Shown here piece by piece: positions 4,730 through 28,998 of a stretch of DNA of 29,019 nt. The notes beneath the pieces are model-generated. The model worked only from the letters and a program-made list of their open reading frames with translations. It made no database searches and was not told the DNA's origin. Position 1 is the stretch's first letter. Each line of letters opens with the position of its first letter. The stretch is from positions 1 through 29,019 of the IMG/VR virus record IMGVR_UViG_3300046804_003818; one strand, 5' to 3'. The stretch is from a virus. The position numbers and the translations under genes are program-made.

Positions 4730-5407
4730 TATTTCTGGGAACAAACAATCCTGTATAAAAACACGCACATCTTCTTCATCAAGCCCTAAACTAGCCATAA
4801 CTTTTGGTGTATGCGGATTTTGCTTTTGATTTAGGCAGTAAAAGTTTTGTCTTTCTGTAGAATTAGGAACAGTGTTATTTGTTTCCCCTACAGTTTCTAA
4901 ATAATGATTTACCAGTATGTGTGCTAAACTTGAAATTTGTGACAATTCTTCATCGTCCTGCACATTGCCTGCTGCTATCATATTAGTGCTAAAAATACGT
5001 TTTGCCCAATCTGGTAATTCACGCTTTTTAATCCACTCGTAACGACTAACTTCATCTCCAAAGTAGTCTAGCATAGGATGTTGTTTAGCTACAGGACTGT
5101 AGTCAATAAAACAGCCAGTAATTTTGTTTTTACCAGCTATTACGTCAAACCCAAATATAGGCGCAGGATTGTGTATATGCGGGAAAATGCAACAGTGCAT
5201 CATCCACAGTCCTTTTTTCTCCCTTGCATCCACAACGTCCACATGCGCCCGTCTGTACAGTCCTGAAGACCATACACGGTTAACCCATCCAGGCTGGTTA
5301 AACCGTTCCATGCCCAACTCAAAAATTTCTTGACCGGTTTCATTAAACTTATTTTCTAATAATTTTTGAATTTGAATAAGTTCGTTCCAGACCTTACTCT
5401 CCGTCAT
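4724..5407 (-). CDS. pcyX: ferredoxin-dependent bilin reductase, PcyX/PcyA type
   Basis: These enzymes reduce biliverdin IXalpha with ferredoxin electrons. The 227 residues follow the PcyA layout: 'YRRAHVDVVD' (51-60), 'LWMMHCCIFPH' (67-77), 'PIFGFDVIAGKNK' (83-95), 'IDYSPV' (101-106) and the C-terminal helix ending DCLFPEIR. H71 and D88 match PcyA catalytic His88 and Asp105; H55 matches His74. At the Glu76 position, used by PcyA for 18-vinyl reduction, there is D57. Phage PcyX enzymes from uncultured marine viruses are PcyA-like in sequence yet make phycoerythrobilin, so phycoerythrobilin is the likeliest product (inferred). The ATG overlaps the end of the heme oxygenase gene by 14 bases, so the two are probably translationally coupled. 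It is the last gene of clpS-ho-pcyX. Confidence 0.85.
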   Translation of the reverse strand: MTESKVWNELIQIQKLLENKFNETGQEIFELGMERFNQPGWVNRVWSSGLYRRAHVDVVDAREKKGLWMMHCCIFPHIHNPAPIFGFDVIAGKNKITGCFIDYSPVAKQHPMLDYFGDEVSRYEWIKKRELPDWAKRIFSTNMIAAGNVQDDEELSQISSLAHILVNHYLETVGETNNTVPNSTERQNFYCLNQKQNPHTPKVMASLGLDEEDVRVFIQDCLFPEIR

Positions 5408-5939
5408 ATAGGTCTTTCATCATCTTAATAGCATATTCAAATGCTACACGAGCTTCGGGTCCTAGATCGTCAGTTAACTCTTGACGAATCTGTGCTTTTA
5501 AGTAATCTTCATTGTCAAAATGATAAAACTTTCCAGAACTAATGTGTGCAACTTGTCTTGCAATAATTTGACCGCCATACAAATCGCCCATATGTCGACA
5601 ATATAAGTGAGCTCTAATTAATTGCTTACGCTCAGGATCATTACCTAGTTTATGCAAATATGCTTGATACTCTAATGTTGCAGGGGTTAGATAATAATAG
5701 TCACCGTCATCTAATTCTAGAAAGTCTGCATGGATAGCACGTAGCCTAGGCAATAGCTGTAGATTTGCAAAAAACCCTTGACGCTTACAGTACCACTCAA
5801 TTGGGTCATAAATGGCTAATAAATTGTACAGATAATTTCTGTAATCTTTTTTTTCAATTTTGCCGCTTAACAATAGCTGGGCAAATTTTGTAGTTTCTGC
5901 TTCGTGATGCAGATCTTGTGTAATTTCTCGTAGACTCAT
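5394..5939 (-). CDS. hemO: heme oxygenase (biliverdin-forming)
   Basis: Opens heme to biliverdin, CO and iron, supplying substrate to the neighbouring reductase. The 181-residue protein has the proximal-helix motif LHHEAE (H11 as heme ligand; the family pattern is H..AE) and the distal-helix motif RHMGDLYGGQ (115-124; GDL.GG is the family signature), plus the 'F...L' N-terminal helix. It ends shortly after the last core helix, without the C-terminal extension of eukaryotic enzymes, as usual for cyanobacterial and phage forms. The ATGA at 5936-5939 is shared with the clpS stop codon, and the 3' end overlaps pcyX by 14 bases. The three genes form one translationally coupled unit. The presence of reductant-dependent partners (ferredoxin) in this phage cannot be judged from the window. 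Confidence 0.93.
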   Translation of the reverse strand: MSLREITQDLHHEAETTKFAQLLLSGKIEKKDYRNYLYNLLAIYDPIEWYCKRQGFFANLQLLPRLRAIHADFLELDDGDYYYLTPATLEYQAYLHKLGNDPERKQLIRAHLYCRHMGDLYGGQIIARQVAHISSGKFYHFDNEDYLKAQIRQELTDDLGPEARVAFEYAIKMMKDLYDGE

Positions 5940-6238
5940 TCTTCTTCCATTTTAATTTGTAGTGGGAAGCCGTTTTGTCTAGCAAGGTTAGTAGTTTCAA
6001 CAGCTTTAATTTCTGCAATTTCGAAACTGTATACACCGGCAATTCCACTGCCAGTATTATGTATCTCCATTGTGATTTCTTTAGCAGTTTCTTGGCTATG
6101 TTTAAAAACTTCTGTCAACGCACCTACTACAAATTCCATTGGTGTGTGATCGTCGTTTAAAAATATTACTTTCCAACGTTTTGGTTCTTCAATTTTTTGT
6201 TTAATCTTTTCGTCTAGTTGAACGTCTGTAGTACCCAT
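5936..6238 (-). CDS. clpS: ClpS, adaptor for N-degron substrates of ClpAP
   Basis: ClpS binds proteins with destabilising N-terminal residues and hands them to the ClpA unfoldase. Taking the ATG at 6238 gives 100 residues; GGAG sits 6 bases upstream, which fixes this start over the TTG at 6250. The substrate pocket is complete: N28-D29-D30 in 'VIFLNDDHTPMEFVV' and H60 in 'EIHNTG' (E. coli N34, D35, D36 and H66 region), followed by 'GIAGVYSFEIAEIKA'. The ClpA-contacting N-terminal tail is normal in length. It heads the clpS-ho-pcyX operon with its own consensus promoter (6284-6312) and a leader hairpin. Whether it redirects host ClpAP for the phage's benefit is inference. Confidence 0.93.
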   Translation of the reverse strand: MGTTDVQLDEKIKQKIEEPKRWKVIFLNDDHTPMEFVVGALTEVFKHSQETAKEITMEIHNTGSGIAGVYSFEIAEIKAVETTNLARQNGFPLQIKMEEE

Positions 6239-6262
6239 GATATTCTCCAAAAGTTAGTAAGT

Positions 6263-6282
6263 GGGGGAAGTTTCCTTCCCCC
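6263..6282 (-). promoter_or_regulatory. perfect hairpin in the clpS leader
   Basis: Eight-base-pair stem GGGGGAAG / CTTCCCCC closed by a GAAA tetraloop (minus strand), between the clpS promoter and its SD. No U-run follows, so it is more likely a 5'-end stabiliser or translation modulator than a terminator. It would lie at or within a few bases of the predicted transcript start. Confidence 0.6.
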
Positions 6283-6283
6283 T

Positions 6284-6312
6284 ATTATATTACTTAACCT
6301 CTACAATGTCAA
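6284..6312 (-). promoter_or_regulatory. consensus sigma70 promoter for clpS-ho-pcyX
   Basis: On the minus strand TTGACA (6307-6312), a 17-base spacer and TATAAT (6284-6289), all matching consensus. The -35 box and spacer lie in the last codons of hsp20. It would start transcription about 40 bases upstream of the clpS ATG, making the bilin/ClpS unit an early, host-polymerase-read operon independent of hsp20. Confidence 0.8.
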
Positions 6313-6736
6313 TTACCCTGGCTTTCTTTTCTTCGGGAATAACATATTCAAGATTGATAGTTAGTATGCCATCTTTAATTTCGGCACCCTTGACTACCAT
6401 GTGTTCGGCCAATTGCCAACTGCGTTCAAAGTCTCTGCTACTCAAACCTCTATGTAAGTATTGGCGAGTAGAAGATTCATTTGGTGTTTCGCTAGAACCT
6501 CGAACAGTCAACATGTCCTGTTCAATTTCTACAGCGATTTCGTGCTTTTTAAATCCAGCCACTGCAATTTCTATTACATAGTGTGTGTCATCAGTCTTGA
6601 CAACATTGTGTGGGGGATAGTTTGTAGTCAATTGATTTGCAAAACGTGCTTCGAATCCATCGAACAGTCTGTCAAATCCTACTAGTGCTCTATTTAGAGC
6701 CTGCGTATCAAAACGAGTCATAGTTCCATTATTCAT
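6290..6736 (-). CDS. hsp20: small heat shock protein Hsp20/IbpA type
   Basis: ATP-independent holdase that keeps unfolding proteins soluble for DnaK and GroEL. 148 residues: a short N-terminal arm with 'FDRLFDGF' typical of IbpA/B, then an alpha-crystallin domain (about 40-140) with 'YVIEIAVAGFKKHEI', 'MLTVRG', 'YLHRGLSSRDFERSW' and 'GILTINL', and a C-terminal I-D-I anchor motif. Hsp20 genes are common in T4-like cyanophages, where a virion-assembly role is suspected. SD AAGGAGA precedes the ATG. Its leader contains a hairpin and an 18-base sequence identical to the dnaK leader. It is downstream of groEL, separated by 96 bases holding an ATAAATA box. Confidence 0.95.
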   Translation of the reverse strand: MNNGTMTRFDTQALNRALVGFDRLFDGFEARFANQLTTNYPPHNVVKTDDTHYVIEIAVAGFKKHEIAVEIEQDMLTVRGSSETPNESSTRQYLHRGLSSRDFERSWQLAEHMVVKGAEIKDGILTINLEYVIPEEKKARVIDIVEVK

Positions 6737-6741
6737 AATTT

Positions 6742-6794
6742 TCTCCTTAATTAAGCAAGAATAGTGTATGCGGCCTCACCCGAGCACCGCATAC
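6742..6794 (-). promoter_or_regulatory. hsp20 leader: hairpin plus conserved 18-mer
   Basis: Minus strand order: stem GTATGCGG (complement of 6787-6794) / CCGCATAC (complement of 6766-6773) with a loop that can add a CTC/GAG pair, then CTTGCTTAATTAAGGAGA (complement of 6742-6759), which includes the SD. The same 18 bases occur before dnaK and a close variant before groES. Confidence 0.55.
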
Positions 6795-6795
6795 T

Positions 6796-6802
6796 TATTT
6801 AT
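6796..6802 (-). promoter_or_regulatory. ATAAATA box, candidate phage late promoter for hsp20
   Basis: ATAAATA on the minus strand, 60 bases upstream of the hsp20 ATG and 30 bases downstream of the groEL stop. It fits the T4-type late promoter box (TATAAATA) at six of the last seven positions or better. AT-rich background makes a single hit weak evidence. Confidence 0.4.
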
Positions 6803-6832
6803 TTTACAATGTCTGTGTGTTTAAGTCAAATA

Positions 6833-8464
<1,632 letters not shown>

Positions 8465-8752
8465 TTATTCGACAATAGCTAGAACATCATCTTCTTTAAG
8501 AACAATGTGTTCTACATCGTTAACTTTAACAGTCTGTCCGGCATACTTTGTATACAGTACAGTATCCCCTTCTTTAATAGACAAAGGTAATACTTTACCA
8601 TCTTCTGTAACTTTGCCTTTGCCTACAGCAAGTACTTTACCTTGTTGTGGTTTTTCCTGTGCATTATCAGGAATAAAGATACCGGCTTTAGTTACAGTTT
8701 CACTGTCTAAAGGTTTAATAATGATTCTATCATGTAATGGTTTTAATTGCAT
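8465..8752 (-). CDS. groES: GroES co-chaperonin (Cpn10)
   Basis: 95-residue heptameric lid of GroEL. Starts [16 protein letters not shown], with the mobile loop at about 17-35 carrying the hydrophobic tripeptide I-F-I (family I-V-L or I-V-I) that docks on GroEL, followed by [17 protein letters not shown] and the roof region '[21 protein letters not shown]'. It is an ordinary bacterial GroES by length and sequence, unlike the large T4 gp31. A bacterial-type GroES together with a dedicated GroEL means the phage supplies the whole chamber. The leader has a GC hairpin and a variant of the chaperone leader sequence. Confidence 0.96.
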
Positions 8753-8757
8753 TTTAA

Positions 8758-8805
8758 TCTCCTTTTAAAGCAAGAAAAATTGGGGGCCTTTTAGAGCACC
8801 CCCTT
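8758..8805 (-). terminator. hairpin between dnaK and groES (weak terminator and groES leader)
   Basis: Minus strand GGGGG (complement of 8799-8803), 12-base loop, CCCCC (complement of 8782-8786), then AATTTTTC. It could attenuate dnaK transcription. It is followed by CTTGCTTTAAAAGGAGA (complement of 8758-8774), a near copy of the dnaK/hsp20 leader 18-mer, which ends in the groES SD. Confidence 0.5.
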
Positions 8806-8813
8806 AAAGATGC

Positions 8814-10682
8814 TTAGGTAGCCTCTGTTACCTCAGCATCAACTATACCGTCAGCTTTGTCCTTTTCTTTAGCCTCTTTGGCTTTACGAACAGGTTCAGT
8901 TGCGGCTAGTAAATCGCTCAATGTTTGAGTGACTTTATCCTTATCGTTGGCATTGGCAGCTTCTTGGAAGTTCTTGATAGCTTCTTCAATCTTATCTTTT
9001 TCTTCCTGGCTTAGTTTGCTTTCAACTTCGCTTAGGTCCTTACGGATAGAATGTATCTGTGCTTCTGCCATATTGCGAGTTTCAATTTCTTCGCGTTTCT
9101 TTTTATCGTCTTCAGCATTAGCTTCGGCTTCTTTGACCATACGATCAATTTCTTCACTGCTAAGTCCGCTATCACTTTTGATAGTGATCTTGTTTTCTTT
9201 GCCAGTATTTTTATCCTTAGCACTGACATGCATAATGCCATTAGCGTCAATGTCAAGGGTAACTTCAATTTGTGGAGTTCCACGTGGAGCAGGATTAATA
9301 CCTTCTAGGTTAAATTCACCTAATAGTTTATTATATTGTACTAGCTCACGCTCGCCTTGGAAGACTTTAATAGTCACAGCTGGCTGGTTGTCGTCGGCAG
9401 TTGAAAATATTTGTTGTGCTTTAGTTGGGATAGTTGTATTCTTTTGAATTAACTTGGCCATAATGCCGCCCATAGTTTCGATGCCAAGGCTTAACGGTGT
9501 AACGTCTAACAGTAAAACATCATTACGGTCACCTGCTAGAACAGCACCCTGAACTGCGGCACCTGCAGCCACTGCTTCGTCAGGGTTAACATCTTTGCGT
9601 GGTGCTTTGCCAAACAGTTTTTCAACTATTTCTTGTACCTTGGGCATACGTGTCATGCCACCAACTAAGATAACTTCGTCAATGTCTCCAGCAGTCACAC
9701 CTGCGTCTTTCATTGCTGTCTTGCAAGGCTCAATTGACCGCTGAATTAATTCATCCACTAGGTTTTCTAATTTAGCACGAGTTAATTTAATGTTCATGTG
9801 CTTAGGACCTGTAGCATCAGCAGTTACGTAAGGTAAGTTAACATCAGTTTGAGCACTGCTTGACAATTCAATCTTGGCCTTTTCAGCGGCTTCTTTTAGA
9901 CGTTGTAGTGCTAGAACATCTTTGGTAAGATCAACGCCAGTGTCTTTCTTGAACTCATCAATCAAGTAGTCCATAATACGCTGGTCAAAGTCTTCACCGC
10001 CGAGGAATGTATCACCGTTAGTAGACAACACTTCAATTTGCTTGTCGCCGTCAACATTGGCAATTTCAATAATGCTAACGTCAAATGTACCACCACCTAA
10101 GTCGTACACAGCAATTTTACGATCCTGTTTGTCAGCTTTATCAACACCGTAGGCTAATGCGGCTGCGGTAGGTTCGTTGATAATACGCAGTACTTCTAAA
10201 CCAGCAATTTGTCCAGCGTCTTTAGTAGCTTGACGTTGTTGATCGTTAAAGTAAGCAGGAACTGTAATAACTGCTTTGGTAACTTCTGTGCCCAAGTAGT
10301 CTTCAGCAGTCTTTTTCATCTTACGTAGCACTTCTGCTGAAATTTGTGGGGGTGCTAGTTCTTTTTCATTTGCACGTACCCATGCATCGCCGTTTTTAGA
10401 TTCCATAATCTCATATGGCATTAGGTCAATGTCTTTTTGTACAGCCTGTTCTTTAAACTTGCGTCCAATTAAACGCTTGGCTGCATAGATAGTGTTTTTG
10501 GGGTTTGTAACAGCTTGTCGTTTTGCTGAAGCGCCAACGAGGATCTCATCATTAGCATAGGCAACAATACTAGGTGTAGTACGAGCACCTTCGCTATTTT
10601 CAATTATTTTGGGAGTTCCGTTTTCGATGACTGCAACGCAGCTATTGGTAGTACCTAAATCGATACCGATGACTTTGCTCAT
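8814..10682 (-). CDS. dnaK: DnaK (Hsp70) chaperone
   Basis: Complete Hsp70, 622 residues (E. coli 638). ATPase domain: phosphate loops [13 protein letters not shown] (5-17) and '[14 protein letters not shown]', adenosine loop '[13 protein letters not shown]'. The interdomain linker region '[19 protein letters not shown]' leads to a peptide-binding domain ('NTTIPTK', '[15 protein letters not shown]') and a helical lid with an acidic end, [12 protein letters not shown]. No DnaJ or GrpE gene is in the window, so it presumably uses host co-chaperones (inferred). Strong bacterial character. Its leader carries an ATAAATA box, a 10-base-pair hairpin and the 18-mer shared with hsp20, with SD AAGGAGA. 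Confidence 0.97.
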
Positions 10683-17835: not shown

Positions 17836-18171
17836 CTAGTCGTTTGGTAAAGTTCTAGAAACCGTTTCTAACATCTCGTCCCAATCCATTTGGCTAAGAC
17901 GTTCTCCAAGTTCTAGCACACAATCTTCGGCTTTTTCGTAGTCTTCTATGCCTAATAATTCGTAAATTTCTTGACGGCTAACATTTTCTGAACGCATGTG
18001 GCATACCCACAACACTGTAACAAAAGCCAATCCAAATATTTTTTCCTGGCTCCAAATTCCATTGGTTTCACACCATTCTATTGTTCGATTAAGATAATAA
18101 TCTATGTCTTCAACTCTATTTTCCAACTGTGCTATCCAATATTGTGTATCTTCTCTGCTCCAATATTTCAT
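17836..18171 (-). CDS. conserved protein of unknown function downstream of iscA
   Basis: 111 residues, mainly helical. Contains 'WIAQLENRVEDIDYYLNRTI', 'WVCHMRSENVSRQEIYELLG' and acidic 'EDYEKAEDCVLELGERLS'. Three cysteines (34, 56 and 87 region) are present but no CxxC. Its ATG overlaps the iscA stop (ATGA), so it is coupled to iscU-iscA translation and may be an accessory protein for that system. No family recognised. Confidence 0.65.
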   Translation of the reverse strand: MKYWSREDTQYWIAQLENRVEDIDYYLNRTIEWCETNGIWSQEKIFGLAFVTVLWVCHMRSENVSRQEIYELLGIEDYEKAEDCVLELGERLSQMDWDEMLETVSRTLPND

Positions 18172-18488
18172 ACCCTAAAACTTTCACCGCAACCACATCG
18201 GTCACGCTCATTTGGATTGCGGAACTCAAATCCTTCATTAAGGCCATTCCTTACCCAATCCATTTCAAGTCCAGTTATGTAGGCTGTACTTTTGGCATCT
18301 ACATATACATGAACACCCTGCGATTCAAAAATACAATCTCCTTCAAATATTTTATCTACATACTCAAGAACATAGGCAAGTCCCGAGCATCCAGTAGTTT
18401 TAACTCCTATCCGAATACCTAGGCCCTTGCCTCTTTTTTGTAGTTGTTGTTTGATCTTTCCTGCTGCCGCCTCAGTTAACGAGATCAT
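18168..18488 (-). CDS. iscA: A-type Fe-S carrier, IscA/ErpA/SufA family
   Basis: 106 residues. The three ligand cysteines are in place: C34 (TTGCSG) and C98/C100 (RCGCGESF), giving the family C-x63-C-x-C pattern. It starts MISLTEAAAGKIKQQL as usual. These proteins receive Fe-S clusters or iron and pass them on to apoproteins. It overlaps iscU by 17 bases. Recipients in this phage could include the host ferredoxin needed by the bilin reductase, or ribonucleotide reductase maintenance; inference only. Virus-encoded A-type carriers are known in some aquatic phages. Confidence 0.93.
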   Translation of the reverse strand: MISLTEAAAGKIKQQLQKRGKGLGIRIGVKTTGCSGLAYVLEYVDKIFEGDCIFESQGVHVYVDAKSTAYITGLEMDWVRNGLNEGFEFRNPNERDRCGCGESFRV

Positions 18489-18861
18489 GCTTTTTCTTAT
18501 AATCTTCTATAGCAGCTTTAATTGCATCTTCAGCAAGGATTGAACAATGTATCTTTACCGGCGGAAGAGCAAGTTCTTCAGCAATCTGTGTGTTTTTAAT
18601 TGTACCCGCTTCTTCCAGCGTCTTACCTTTGACCCATTCTGTGACCAAACTACTGCTCGCAATAGCACTACCACAACCATAAGTTTTAAAGCGAGCATCT
18701 TCAATAATTCCTTCTTTAGTCACCTTTATTTGTAATTTCATTACATCACCGCAGGCAGGTGCTCCTACCATACCTGTACCTACGGATTCATCACTCTTGT
18801 CAAAACTACCAACATTGCGAGGATTCTCGTAGTGATCGATAACCTGACTTGAATATGCCAT
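18472..18861 (-). CDS. iscU: IscU Fe-S cluster scaffold
   Basis: 129 residues, aligning without gaps to E. coli IscU over the ligands: C37 (PACGD), D39, C63 (YGCGSA), H105 and C106 (IHCSIL). The HscA-recognition motif LPPVK occupies 99-103. So it looks like a working scaffold on which the host desulfurase IscS assembles clusters. No iscS, hscA or fdx is in the window; the phage DnaK might stand in for HscA or the host supplies it (inferred). SD AAGAGG 7-12 bases upstream; the gene starts 4 bases after the His-rich protein's stop codon. Confidence 0.94.
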   Translation of the reverse strand: MAYSSQVIDHYENPRNVGSFDKSDESVGTGMVGAPACGDVMKLQIKVTKEGIIEDARFKTYGCGSAIASSSLVTEWVKGKTLEEAGTIKNTQIAEELALPPVKIHCSILAEDAIKAAIEDYKKKHDLVN

Positions 18862-26592: not shown

Positions 26593-26599
26593 TATTTAG
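26593..26599 (-). promoter_or_regulatory. CTAAATA box upstream of the tail protein gene
   Basis: Minus strand CTAAATA ending 20 bases before the ATG, in the short gap after the nuclease gene. A late virion gene is where a T4-type late promoter is expected. Confidence 0.5.
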
Positions 26600-27285
26600 C
26601 TGTTTAATCTATAGTATTCGCTTACCCTATCACACCAGCGTTCTGTCCAGTAATCAAAGTCCTTAGGTTCTAGCACAAATTCTTGATACTCGTAGTCTTT
26701 GCTACACATTAAAATAACACCCTTGCGTATATTAGTTCCGTGTACTTCATTGTGTGCTAGAGCATAGGCTGTTAACTGTAAGAAGTAGTCATCAATCCAC
26801 TCACGCTTTTTAGGTTTGTTAGTCTGTTTAAAGTCTAGTATACTTTGATCGCCTTGATGTACGCCCACGCAGTCAGTAGTTCCCGCATATAGTTCTGGAA
26901 AGTATAGAGGTACTTCGCTGCCCCATACTTCATCTACAAAGGCCAAGCCGTGTGTAATAACTTTACGAGCCATTACTAGACTTTGTTGTGCATAAGGATT
27001 AGTTACGGTTTCAGGAAGTTCTTCTCCCTTGATATAACGCTCAAGGAAAGTATGCATACGTGTTCCGCGACTAGCAGCTTCAGTTACAATTTCTTGTGCC
27101 TTAGCTTCTCCAACTGCGGCTTTCCAACGGGCTAGTGCTTCTCGAGCTTCTGCTGGTTTGGTTTTATCTAAGATAGTAGTTACTGACGGAACTTTGTGAC
27201 CTTCGGGCGTAGCATAAAGTCTACGCCCAGTTGAATCATCTCTAGATAGTGGTTTGTATTGATAACGTTCGATTAATAATGCCAT
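26596..27285 (-). CDS. PD-(D/E)XK nuclease, RecB/Cas4-like
   Basis: 229 residues. Motifs of the RecB-type nuclease fold: 'ASRGTRMHTFLERYI' (His helix, about 71-85), 'YAGTTDCVG' with the metal-binding Asp, 'SILDFKQTNK' as D-x-K (D then K two residues on), and 'YFLQLTAYALAHNEV' as the QxxxY motif. Single-domain exonucleases like this are found in aquatic T4-like phages, for DNA recombination or host DNA breakdown. A perfect sigma70 promoter ends 5 bases before the ATG, so it should be expressed early from a leaderless message. Confidence 0.87.
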   Translation of the reverse strand: MALLIERYQYKPLSRDDSTGRRLYATPEGHKVPSVTTILDKTKPAEAREALARWKAAVGEAKAQEIVTEAASRGTRMHTFLERYIKGEELPETVTNPYAQQSLVMARKVITHGLAFVDEVWGSEVPLYFPELYAGTTDCVGVHQGDQSILDFKQTNKPKKREWIDDYFLQLTAYALAHNEVHGTNIRKGVILMCSKDYEYQEFVLEPKDFDYWTERWCDRVSEYYRLNS

Positions 27286-27290
27286 GATAC

Positions 27291-27319
27291 ATTATATAGT
27301 ATCTACAGCACTATGTCAA
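27291..27319 (-). promoter_or_regulatory. consensus sigma70 promoter, leaderless start of nuclease gene
   Basis: Minus strand TTGACA (27314-27319), 17-base spacer, TATAAT (27291-27296), 5 bases, ATG. The -35 box contains the TGA stop codon of the upstream frame (27316-27318). Confidence 0.8.
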
Positions 27320-27636
27320 CCTGGTTGTTGAAGTGTTTTAGCCGCAGCACGTTTGGCGCTAGGTGCCGCATTAGATTTATCTGTTGCGGTTGGTTCTGGC
27401 TTTTCTTTGGTTTTAAGTGTTATACCACGGCCGTCAAACTGTTGTACAATATTTTTTAGTTGTGGTAGTTGATCAAACTCTGCTTTGAATGTTTCGTAGT
27501 CCATTTCTGTACCACTCATGTTCTGTAGCATATTAGATATAGCTTCCCAACTAAATTGGGCAGGAACACCTTTTGAATTTGCTCTAGATTGAAGTTGTAG
27601 AAGGATGCGGATTAAGTTATCCGCATCTTCCGTTAC
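27316..27636 (-). CDS. -1-frame extension of the prohead-core-like protein (probable frameshift product)
   Basis: An open frame entered by a -1 shift at the A9 run. From the GTA at 27636 it reads VTEDADNLIRILLQLQSR, then 'GVPAQFSWEAISNML', 'MDYETFKAEFDQLPQL', 'NIVQQFDGRGITL' and a K/A/P-rich tail, 106 residues to the TGA at 27316. The first 35 codons look fully protein-like but contain no ATG, GTG or TTG, and a TAA lies 8 codons before the A run. A start at the ATG 27531 would lose this well-formed helix and has no good SD. T4-like cyanophages, as I recall, have a similar small ORF right after the prohead core gene, so here the two may be joined by frameshifting. A homopolymer sequencing error is the rival explanation. 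Confidence 0.7.
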   Translation of the reverse strand, partial: VTEDADNLIRILLQLQSRANSKGVPAQFSWEAISNMLQNMSGTEMDYETFKAEFDQLPQLKNIVQQFDGRGITLKTKEKPEPTATDKSNAAPSAKRAAAKTLQQPG

Positions 27637-27645
27637 TTTTTTTTT
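27604..27645 (-). other. candidate programmed -1 ribosomal frameshift signal
   Basis: Minus strand: nine A (27637-27645) then G, giving A AAA AAG in the zero frame, the slippery heptamer of E. coli dnaX. The zero-frame stop TAA follows at once. After an 8-base gap comes the perfect 9-pair stem GATGCGGAT / ATCCGCATC with loop AACTTA (27604-27627); three more pairs (GAA/TTC, one bulged base) bring the gap to 5. All parts needed for -1 slippage are present in the right order and spacing. No strong upstream SD-like stimulator is seen. Confidence 0.72.
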
Positions 27646-28529
27646 GGTTGACTTAGTATTGTGCCTAGTTTACGGCTATACTCGATTGATTCTCTTTTTG
27701 CACGGCCTGCGGCTTCTTCTCCGCCAGCTGCTGGTTCAGCAGCGGCAAACTGGTCAGGAGTTGGCATTTCTTCTGCACCCATCGAAGCAGATGCTGTCAT
27801 ATCAGGTGCGCCTGCTGGGCCTTCTTCACCTGTTAGGATTGCTACAGATTGTGCTAGTGTTGTACGTGTAGTTTCTAATGCTGTATATAAGTCTTCTAAT
27901 GCTGGTTTAGCTGAGCCAGCAAATTGACTGCTAATGTCTGAGCCTAATTCATCTCTTATAGAGTCTTCTAATTCTAGCATTGCTTCAGCTTTGAGCTGAG
28001 CAACATCTTCTAGCCATCCTGTTACTTTATCAACCATATCACGAGCACTCATGATTAAGGCTGCTTTTTCTTCTTCGCCTTCTGTTAGGGTTCTTTCTGA
28101 TAGGACAGAGCGTAGCACATCCATGGCCTCTTCAATACTTTCTTTCTTAGCCATCTTTGTAGCTGTTGCGTGCATTACTTCTTCGCCTTTGTCGCCATAA
28201 CGCTTTTTAAACTCGCCTGACTTTTTCTTCATGCCTTTTACATACTTTTCTTTCTTTGCTTCTTCGCCTGGGCTTAGTGTACGCTCTGAAATTGCTTGTG
28301 TAATGACATCTAGGAACATACGATCTTTTTGGTATTCGTTGCTTTCATAAACAGCATCATACTCGCGGCTGCTTTCAAATTTAACAATCTTGTCTGCAAC
28401 ACGGTCACGAGCAGCCTGTAGCTGTTCCATAGTAAACTTATCTAAGTTTAACTTATAACCAAATTTTTGAGCCATACTCTCGTTAAGAGTTGTACTGGTT
28501 TTTGGATGCGAAAGTTCTCTGATTTGCAT
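27633..28529 (-). CDS. prohead core (scaffold)-like protein, zero-frame product
   Basis: 298 residues, highly charged and helical. Contains 'NLDKFTMEQLQAARDRVADK', two copies of a short repeat ('ISERTLSPGEEAKKEK' and 'LSERTLTEGEEEKA'), the block 'YVKGMKKKSGEFKKRYGDKG' / 'EEVMHATATKMAKKE' that I remember from prohead or core proteins of T4-like marine phages, and an acidic, Ala/Gly/Pro-rich stretch (about 232-275) before the C-terminal PKKK. Scaffold proteins organise capsid assembly and are usually removed by the prohead protease. The gene ends in a probable -1 frameshift site, so a longer form of 404 residues is predicted. GATAAATA (28558-28565) lies 28 bases upstream. Confidence 0.65.
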   Translation of the reverse strand: MQIRELSHPKTSTTLNESMAQKFGYKLNLDKFTMEQLQAARDRVADKIVKFESSREYDAVYESNEYQKDRMFLDVITQAISERTLSPGEEAKKEKYVKGMKKKSGEFKKRYGDKGEEVMHATATKMAKKESIEEAMDVLRSVLSERTLTEGEEEKAALIMSARDMVDKVTGWLEDVAQLKAEAMLELEDSIRDELGSDISSQFAGSAKPALEDLYTALETTRTTLAQSVAILTGEEGPAGAPDMTASASMGAEEMPTPDQFAAAEPAAGGEEAAGRAKRESIEYSRKLGTILSQPKKK

Positions 28530-28557: not shown

Positions 28558-28565
28558 TATTTATC
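28558..28565 (-). promoter_or_regulatory. GATAAATA box upstream of the prohead-core-like gene
   Basis: Minus strand GATAAATA, overlapping the TGA stop of the previous gene and 28 bases before the ATG; good match to T4-type late promoter boxes at a head gene. Confidence 0.5.
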
Positions 28566-28998
28566 AAAAGTGTGTTTTGAACATCTGTGAAATCTTCCCT
28601 GCACTGCGTTTGCTTTTAGCAGTAGCTATATCATATCTAGATCTCAACATGTCTTTTCTGTCTAGGTCTTTAGCTGTATCAATACGGTATTTAAAAATTT
28701 GGCTGTCACTTAGCCCAGTCCAATACTCTGTATCTAATACTTTTATTTCGTTAAATTGATGCAGTCTATTTCTATCATAGAACTTGGCTGCTAGCAAGGC
28801 TGCACTTTTAGTTCTAAAATTTTCTATAAAATCACCAGTTTTTGCATAACGTAAAAGCCAAAGACCATGTTTATTCTGTTTAATTTTATACTGTTTATAA
28901 ACTATACTTTTGTCTGGAAGTATAGCTATAGGCAACTCTTTACTAAGTTCTTCCTGTAAAAAAGTTTCTAGCTGTTTTGCTTTTTGTTTAAAGTTCAT
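28564..28998 (-). CDS. conserved phage protein, unknown function
   Basis: 144 residues from the ATG at 28998; a TTG two codons earlier (29004) is an alternative, and AAGAG is the only SD-like site. Starts MNFKQKAKQLETFLQEELS. 'YKQYKIKQNKHGLWLLRYAK' and 'NFRTKSAALLAAKFYDRNRL' are strand-rich then helical, and the C-terminal third is basic ('LDRKDMLRSRYDIATAKSKR'). No family recognised. It lies just upstream of the prohead-core-like gene, in what looks like the head-gene region; small nucleic-acid-binding protein is a guess. Confidence 0.7.
   Translation of the reverse strand: MNFKQKAKQLETFLQEELSKELPIAILPDKSIVYKQYKIKQNKHGLWLLRYAKTGDFIENFRTKSAALLAAKFYDRNRLHQFNEIKVLDTEYWTGLSDSQIFKYRIDTAKDLDRKDMLRSRYDIATAKSKRSAGKISQMFKTHF

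Follow-up and report, generated by a model that had tools for sequence, protein, structure and literature searches.

A strongly supported programmed -1 frameshift at the junction of two putative virion genes of T4-related jumbo phages

Known systems and the locus

Among tailed phages, frameshifting is known for tail chaperones and for a few capsid proteins. In gene 10 of phages T7 and T3, in Lactobacillus phage A2 and in Listeria phage PSA, a minor form of a virion protein arises by a shift close to the 3' end of its gene; it is longer at the C-terminus, and the extension stays on the capsid protein. In E. coli dnaX the shift occurs at an A_AAA_AAG heptamer, the most shift-prone of its kind in that organism (PMC5009743), followed by a short spacer and a stem-loop and preceded by a Shine-Dalgarno stimulator, which many other frameshift sites do without. 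The dnaX gene of Thermus thermophilus also gives two products, there by slippage on a long A run, and the long product is the unshifted one; it is the precedent for slippage of this kind during transcription (PMC5009743). The Gag-Pol frameshift of retroviruses and totiviruses fuses a passenger to a particle protein, with a given ratio, co-packaging and a protease site at the join, and it is considered that fusion to a capsid component ahead of later cleavage aids packaging (PMC5009743). Another route into the particle is that of the T4 proteins IPIII, IPII, IPI and Alt, which have a short N-terminal leader, the capsid targeting sequence, that is removed in the prohead by gp21, a protease that cleaves after L/I-x-E (PMC9026906).

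The locus described here lies in a stretch of viral DNA of 29,019 nucleotides (IMG/VR record IMGVR_UViG_3300046804_003818), the whole of which we call the window. Its gene A ends CCA AAA AAA AAG TAA, and a second reading frame, B, leads on from the run of As in the -1 frame (Table 1). Comparison with relatives strongly supports a programmed -1 frameshift at this position. The heptamer, the short spacer and the downstream stem-loop recall E. coli dnaX, the layout that a preliminary description of this DNA had proposed. Unlike dnaX, in which six As stand before the G, the window has nine, and this leaves room for transcriptional slippage; here, moreover, the frameshift yields the longer product and not the shorter, the gene is a phage virion gene, and an upstream Shine-Dalgarno stimulator is not general. 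Slippage on a long A run to give two products is shared with T. thermophilus dnaX, although the hairpins and a preference for AAG here point to the ribosome. The likeness to Gag-Pol includes a protease site at the join, here a predicted one; the proteins are, however, unrelated, the virus is a dsDNA tailed phage that uses a bacterial ribosome, and both cleavage and packaging are predicted. In contrast to T7, T3, A2 and PSA, relatives encode the partner in a gene of its own, and the join bears a protease motif. Separate B genes open with a leader of the kind seen in T4 (in phage CBB, MRFSQITE/DAP, the stroke marking the predicted cut), which in the window clade is replaced by the frameshift fusion to A. 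Also comparable are CBB_298/CBB_299 and GAP32_293/GAP32_294 of Mimasvirus, apparently homologous neighbours in the same synteny with an exonuclease and ribonucleotide reductase, whose products occur in virions; unlike the genes of the window, they are two separate genes, each with its own start, and lack the A run.

Frameshifts in head genes of phages, like the targeting of proteins to the capsid, have precedents. Our search of the open-access full-text literature, most subscription papers being outside its scope, turned up neither this frameshift nor, for tailed phages, any scheme of fusion and release, and no frameshift in the head-associated genes of jumbo phages related to T4; the preliminary description, likewise, had known of none in T4-like phages.

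The scheme that we propose is as follows. One message would give A (298 residues) and, in some decoding events, the fusion A-KKK-B (404 residues), the slip taking place on the A9 run at A_AAA_AAG, most likely by the ribosome, with the help in many lineages of a hairpin approximately 5 nt downstream. B would be a small virion protein, which in related phages has its own gene and a leader like a capsid targeting sequence; fusion to A would stand in for its start codon, its ribosome-binding site and that leader. Inside the prohead, which B would enter on A in a set ratio, B would be freed by the gp21-type protease through a cut after [L/I/V]xE, immediately past the slip site (VTE/DAD in the window). 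The same protease probably also cuts LTE/GEE ahead of the core of A. Taken as a whole, from frameshift through carriage into the prohead to release, we consider this scheme probable.

Table 1. Positions in the window of the features of the A-B locus and of its neighbours.
Feature	Position	Strand	Remarks
Small gene upstream of A	28564-28998	minus	syntenic in metagenomic relatives
Gene A	27633-28529	minus	298 codons; variable N-terminal part and conserved core (approximately residues 151-298)
Predicted prohead-protease site L-T-E/G	28080-28088	minus	residues 148-150, ahead of the A core
A9 run (slip site)	27637-27645	minus	
Heptamer A_AAA_AAG	27636-27642	minus	in the reading frame of gene A
TAA stop of gene A	27633-27635	minus	frame 0
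B, -1 frame extension	27316-27636	minus	106 codons and stop (27316-27318)
Predicted protease site VTE/D	27628-27636	minus	codons for V-T-E, directly behind the slip site
Stem-loop	27599-27631	minus	13 pairs, one bulge; 4-5 nt past the heptamer
First ATG in B frame	27529-27531	minus	codon 36; as a start, not conserved in other clades
PD-(D/E)XK exonuclease	26596-27285	minus	syntenic downstream neighbour; also in GAP32, CBB, Munch, XaC1 and Vibrio phage 2.275.O

The +1 frame shuts immediately. The -1 frame, as had been described, is open for the whole length of B, and ATG, GTG and TTG are absent from the 35 codons that precede its first ATG. A run of nine is not rare in itself, since the window holds two A or T runs of nine and two of eight, and with long runs so common conservation is the proper test; the other runs in the window (5847, 13583 and 25031) have no comparable shifted ORF. 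In L001, a separate IMG/VR contig that reaches past the end of the window, the A9 is identical. Neither an Rfam family nor a tRNA was found.

Other parts of the window are of interest in their own right. A host-like stress set (5394-10682) comprises ClpS, Hsp20, GroES, GroEL and DnaK and adjoins a heme oxygenase (5394-5939). At 257-2104 a CsgG-like curli secretion protein (E 1e-48) stands beside a repetitive curlin-like secreted protein that has no Pfam match, and similar ORFs recur in the relative G001. Two iron-sulphur assembly genes, Fe-S_biosyn (IscA-like) and NifU_N (IscU-like), lie side by side at 18168-18861.

Identity of the A and B proteins

Searches of isolate phages by tblastn with the whole of A or the whole of B gave no match, whereas the conserved core block of A alone matched the Mimasvirus jumbo phages and their relatives (GAP32, CBB, Munch and XaC1) and Vibrio phage 2.275.O. 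In these isolates A and B are adjacent, separate genes; the pair is followed by the same exonuclease as in the window and, in most, ribonucleotide reductase comes next. By hmmsearch with family profiles, A matched CBB_298/GAP32_293 at 5e-13 to 2e-9 and is, on these matches, homologous to that virion protein. The corresponding match of B to CBB_299/GAP32_294 is weak (1e-3 to 2e-2), and together with synteny it hints at homology. Both CBB proteins were detected by mass spectrometry of virions, CBB_298 with 10 peptides (35.8% coverage) and CBB_299 with 2 peptides (20% coverage; PMC5259590, Table 4). A search for a relative in the PDB by sequence found none.

The preliminary description had taken A for a prohead-core or scaffold protein, and had suggested that the two products might be scaffold forms in a fixed ratio. 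That A is the scaffold gp22 is ruled out, because both GAP32 and G019 (a metagenomic contig of 357 kb with the frameshift locus L309) have a different gene between the gp21-type protease and gp23, and A belongs in both to another cluster, far from the gp22 position; with this, the idea of two scaffold forms lost its support. The gp21-type protease (PF03420) and gp23 (PF07068) are present in G019 and in five isolates. Matches of A to the Pfam families BsuPI, NIBRIN, DUF1330 and Peptidase_M1 were weak and below the cut-offs, and were disregarded.

Two further observations concern the proteins themselves. The linker of A (residues 92-133, at 28131-28256) is exchanged between lineages: it has a KYVKGMKKKSGEFKKRYG-type motif (phrog_12788) in the window and a D-x-D-x-DGDKKEPMKKA motif in other lineages. 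No motif of the family is better conserved than VxxMAKRA, at the C-terminus of B (27319-27369), which reads PSAKRAAAK in the window.

Run, reading frame and slippage

Relatives were gathered by scanning IMG/VR with gene A of several lineages, one such scan alone giving 563 stretches that encode relatives of A; the usable set comprises 345 loci with 199 distinct junctions. It should be noted that these loci are related and partly redundant, and the p-values given below are inflated accordingly. All 165 distinct junctions with a run of 8-10 As have B in the -1 frame, and all 165 contain an in-phase A_AAA_AAG or A_AAA_AAA; the in-phase run is A9 in 147, A10 in 12 and A8 in six. An ATG occurs within 45 nt in 12 of the 165, with a Shine-Dalgarno-like match in just one. 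The 34 junctions that lack the run present the opposite picture: every one has an ATG for B within 45 nt, 32 have a Shine-Dalgarno-like sequence, and B stands in frame 0 (20), +1 (7) or -1 (7). The association between the run and the missing start is thus very strong (Fisher p = 4e-39, a value inflated by relatedness). Relatives with a clear start and Shine-Dalgarno sequence for B, which had been named as something that might speak against a frameshift, do occur, and since they are found exactly where the A run is missing they support a frameshift in the remaining junctions. Added to this is the evidence of selection. For the 34 codons with which B opens, all ahead of any ATG, pN/pS in the window clade is 0.33 in the -1 frame as opposed to 1.3-1.5 in the other frames, so that B upstream of its first ATG is under purifying selection and, as had been supposed, reads as real protein. 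The conserved heptamer, the start-less downstream ORF and the two products of 298 and 404 residues are all upheld by the comparison of relatives. At two loci (L304:3229-3306 and L338:1231-1308) the A-B junction has two A9 runs in tandem, separated by approximately 14 nt, which looks like a duplication of the slip site.

The distribution of the two layouts was mapped on a quick tree of gene A with 110 representatives. Parsimony gives six changes of layout, of which four are forced by well-supported branches, whereas shuffled labels need approximately 19 (none of 500 shuffles was as low as six). The layout has switched at least four times. Some run-bearing loci are nested in a clade with separate genes, and switching may have gone in both directions.

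The hairpin that had been placed at 27604-27630, with a spacer of 5-8 nt, was found again, its extent slightly longer and its spacer 4-5 nt (Table 1). The 81-nt stretch that contains it folds at -19 kcal/mol (z = -5.4), and none of 200 shuffles was as good. Across the family, the mean folding z downstream of the run is -1.47, compared with -0.13 and -0.04 in control stretches (paired Wilcoxon 4e-12), and the excess persists on 50 representatives of 70% identity clusters (p 4e-4). The hairpins differ between lineages and are unrelated, with a median spacer of 5 nt; z falls below -3 in only 18% of junctions, so that many lineages are without a detectable stimulator. In the window clade pairing of the stem is kept in 89% of cells, as against 43-51% for slid controls; as for the covariation that the preliminary description had looked forward to, compensatory double changes in that stem are not above shuffles. 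A general Shine-Dalgarno-like stimulator upstream of the run was sought across the family and proved weaker than in controls overall. A few lineages (L206, L208, L213, L187, L192, L193, L196 and L147) do resemble E. coli dnaX in having a strong GGAGG or GGAG a short way ahead of the run.

It remains to consider how else the junction might be read. That the run is a homopolymer error of sequencing or assembly, the true gene being one ORF, or that B is dead in a decayed gene, is scarcely credible: homopolymers are error-prone, but the same arrangement recurs across many samples, in 165 distinct junctions, and also in two MAG contigs (one of 335 kb), which have the same run and B at -1, and B evolves under purifying selection. 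A continuous A-B ORF, the outcome that had been expected to tell against a frameshift, was found in none of the 345 loci, even though one indel in the run would create it; this excludes sequencing error and suggests that both A and A-B are needed. Alternatively, A and B might be two separate proteins without fusion, with translation of B beginning independently, at an internal or a non-canonical codon, and coupled to the stop of A. GGGAAG stands upstream of the ATG at 27531 and 34 distinct relatives do have a start of their own, but selection on B upstream of that ATG, the rarity of a nearby ATG in run-bearing junctions and the locking together of frame and run, where a fixed -1 frame would be needless, make this very unlikely. 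The least unlikely of the alternatives concerns the slip itself, with RNA polymerase adding an A on the A9 run and the A10 message being translated normally into A-B, without any slip by the ribosome. Runs of at least nine (A9 or A10) occur in 159 of 165 junctions, which is longer than a ribosomal heptamer needs and fits transcriptional slippage at least as well; where the base before the lysine codons is G, the run is nine in another phase; and there is the Thermus precedent. Against this, the enriched downstream hairpins and the 5-nt spacer are not expected to matter to the polymerase, and the six distinct junctions with only eight As still keep A_AAA_AAG. The last lysine codon of the run is, furthermore, AAG in 143 of the 165, while AAG makes up 22% of lysine codons in A, a strong preference that speaks against transcriptional slippage, although the same G also serves the -1 codon. 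On this comparison a slip by the ribosome is favoured as considerably more likely than one by the polymerase, and both may contribute.

The junction motif and the probable fate of B

In 161 of the 165 fused junctions a [LIVMF]xE motif lies within 10 residues of the slip, in 94 of them at the very first residue, whereas control windows of equal size elsewhere in B contain it in 3-12 of 165. The residue that follows (P1') is mostly A, G or S. The four junctions that lack the motif have near variants (ITQE and ITHE) or a later KKKIAE. Every one of the 34 separate Bs has the motif near its start, in leaders such as MRFSQITE/DAP or MRVSEILKE; as far as their sequences go, these leaders are similar to the capsid targeting sequence, 10 residues long, of T4 IPIII. 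P3 is V in 104 of 161 fused forms and in none of the 34 separate ones. V is outside the L/I-x-E rule of T4, and its presence in the fused forms is perhaps explained by the G of A_AAA_AAG, which opens the next codon, GTA. A similar motif, [VLI]xE/G, precedes the core of A in 189 of 211 unique sequences, with E150 invariant; G151 is invariant in the metagenomic set. The contig of the window is without head genes, and we infer the protease from its relatives.

Leaders of this type are found elsewhere too. In G001, G004 and G010 (L053-L062) several ORFs begin with capsid-targeting-like sequences, for example MRANEFLREAE and MKITEIVTES; among ORFs of related contigs such N-termini number 5 of 259, compared with 4 of 1155 at internal Met, a mild enrichment. 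The ORFs concerned may be further internal head proteins.

It could be argued that the frameshift is real and that the extension is a permanent C-terminal domain of A instead of a releasable passenger. Frameshifts in the head genes of phages usually serve this end, as in the minor capsid forms of T7/T3 or A2 (PMC5009743). We regard it as unlikely for the present family, in which B is a free virion protein in relatives and 98% of fused forms have the protease motif where A and B meet. On the preferred reading, with B as a passenger that is released, cleavage would follow packaging of the fusion and co-targeting would be the purpose of the arrangement. On balance, it would seem that a lineage of T4-related jumbo phages uses a strategy like that of Gag-Pol, in which the fusion enters the particle in a set proportion and the passenger is then released, and that it has moved repeatedly between this and a separate gene bearing a leader, the two being interchangeable routes for loading the head.

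One practical consequence is that, in hundreds of viral contigs, B will escape gene callers. More generally, the family amounts to a natural experiment, in which the same two proteins are made either through a frameshift or from separate genes, with repeated switches between the two. With it one can test whether selection for frameshifting is driven by a fixed ratio together with joint delivery to the prohead.
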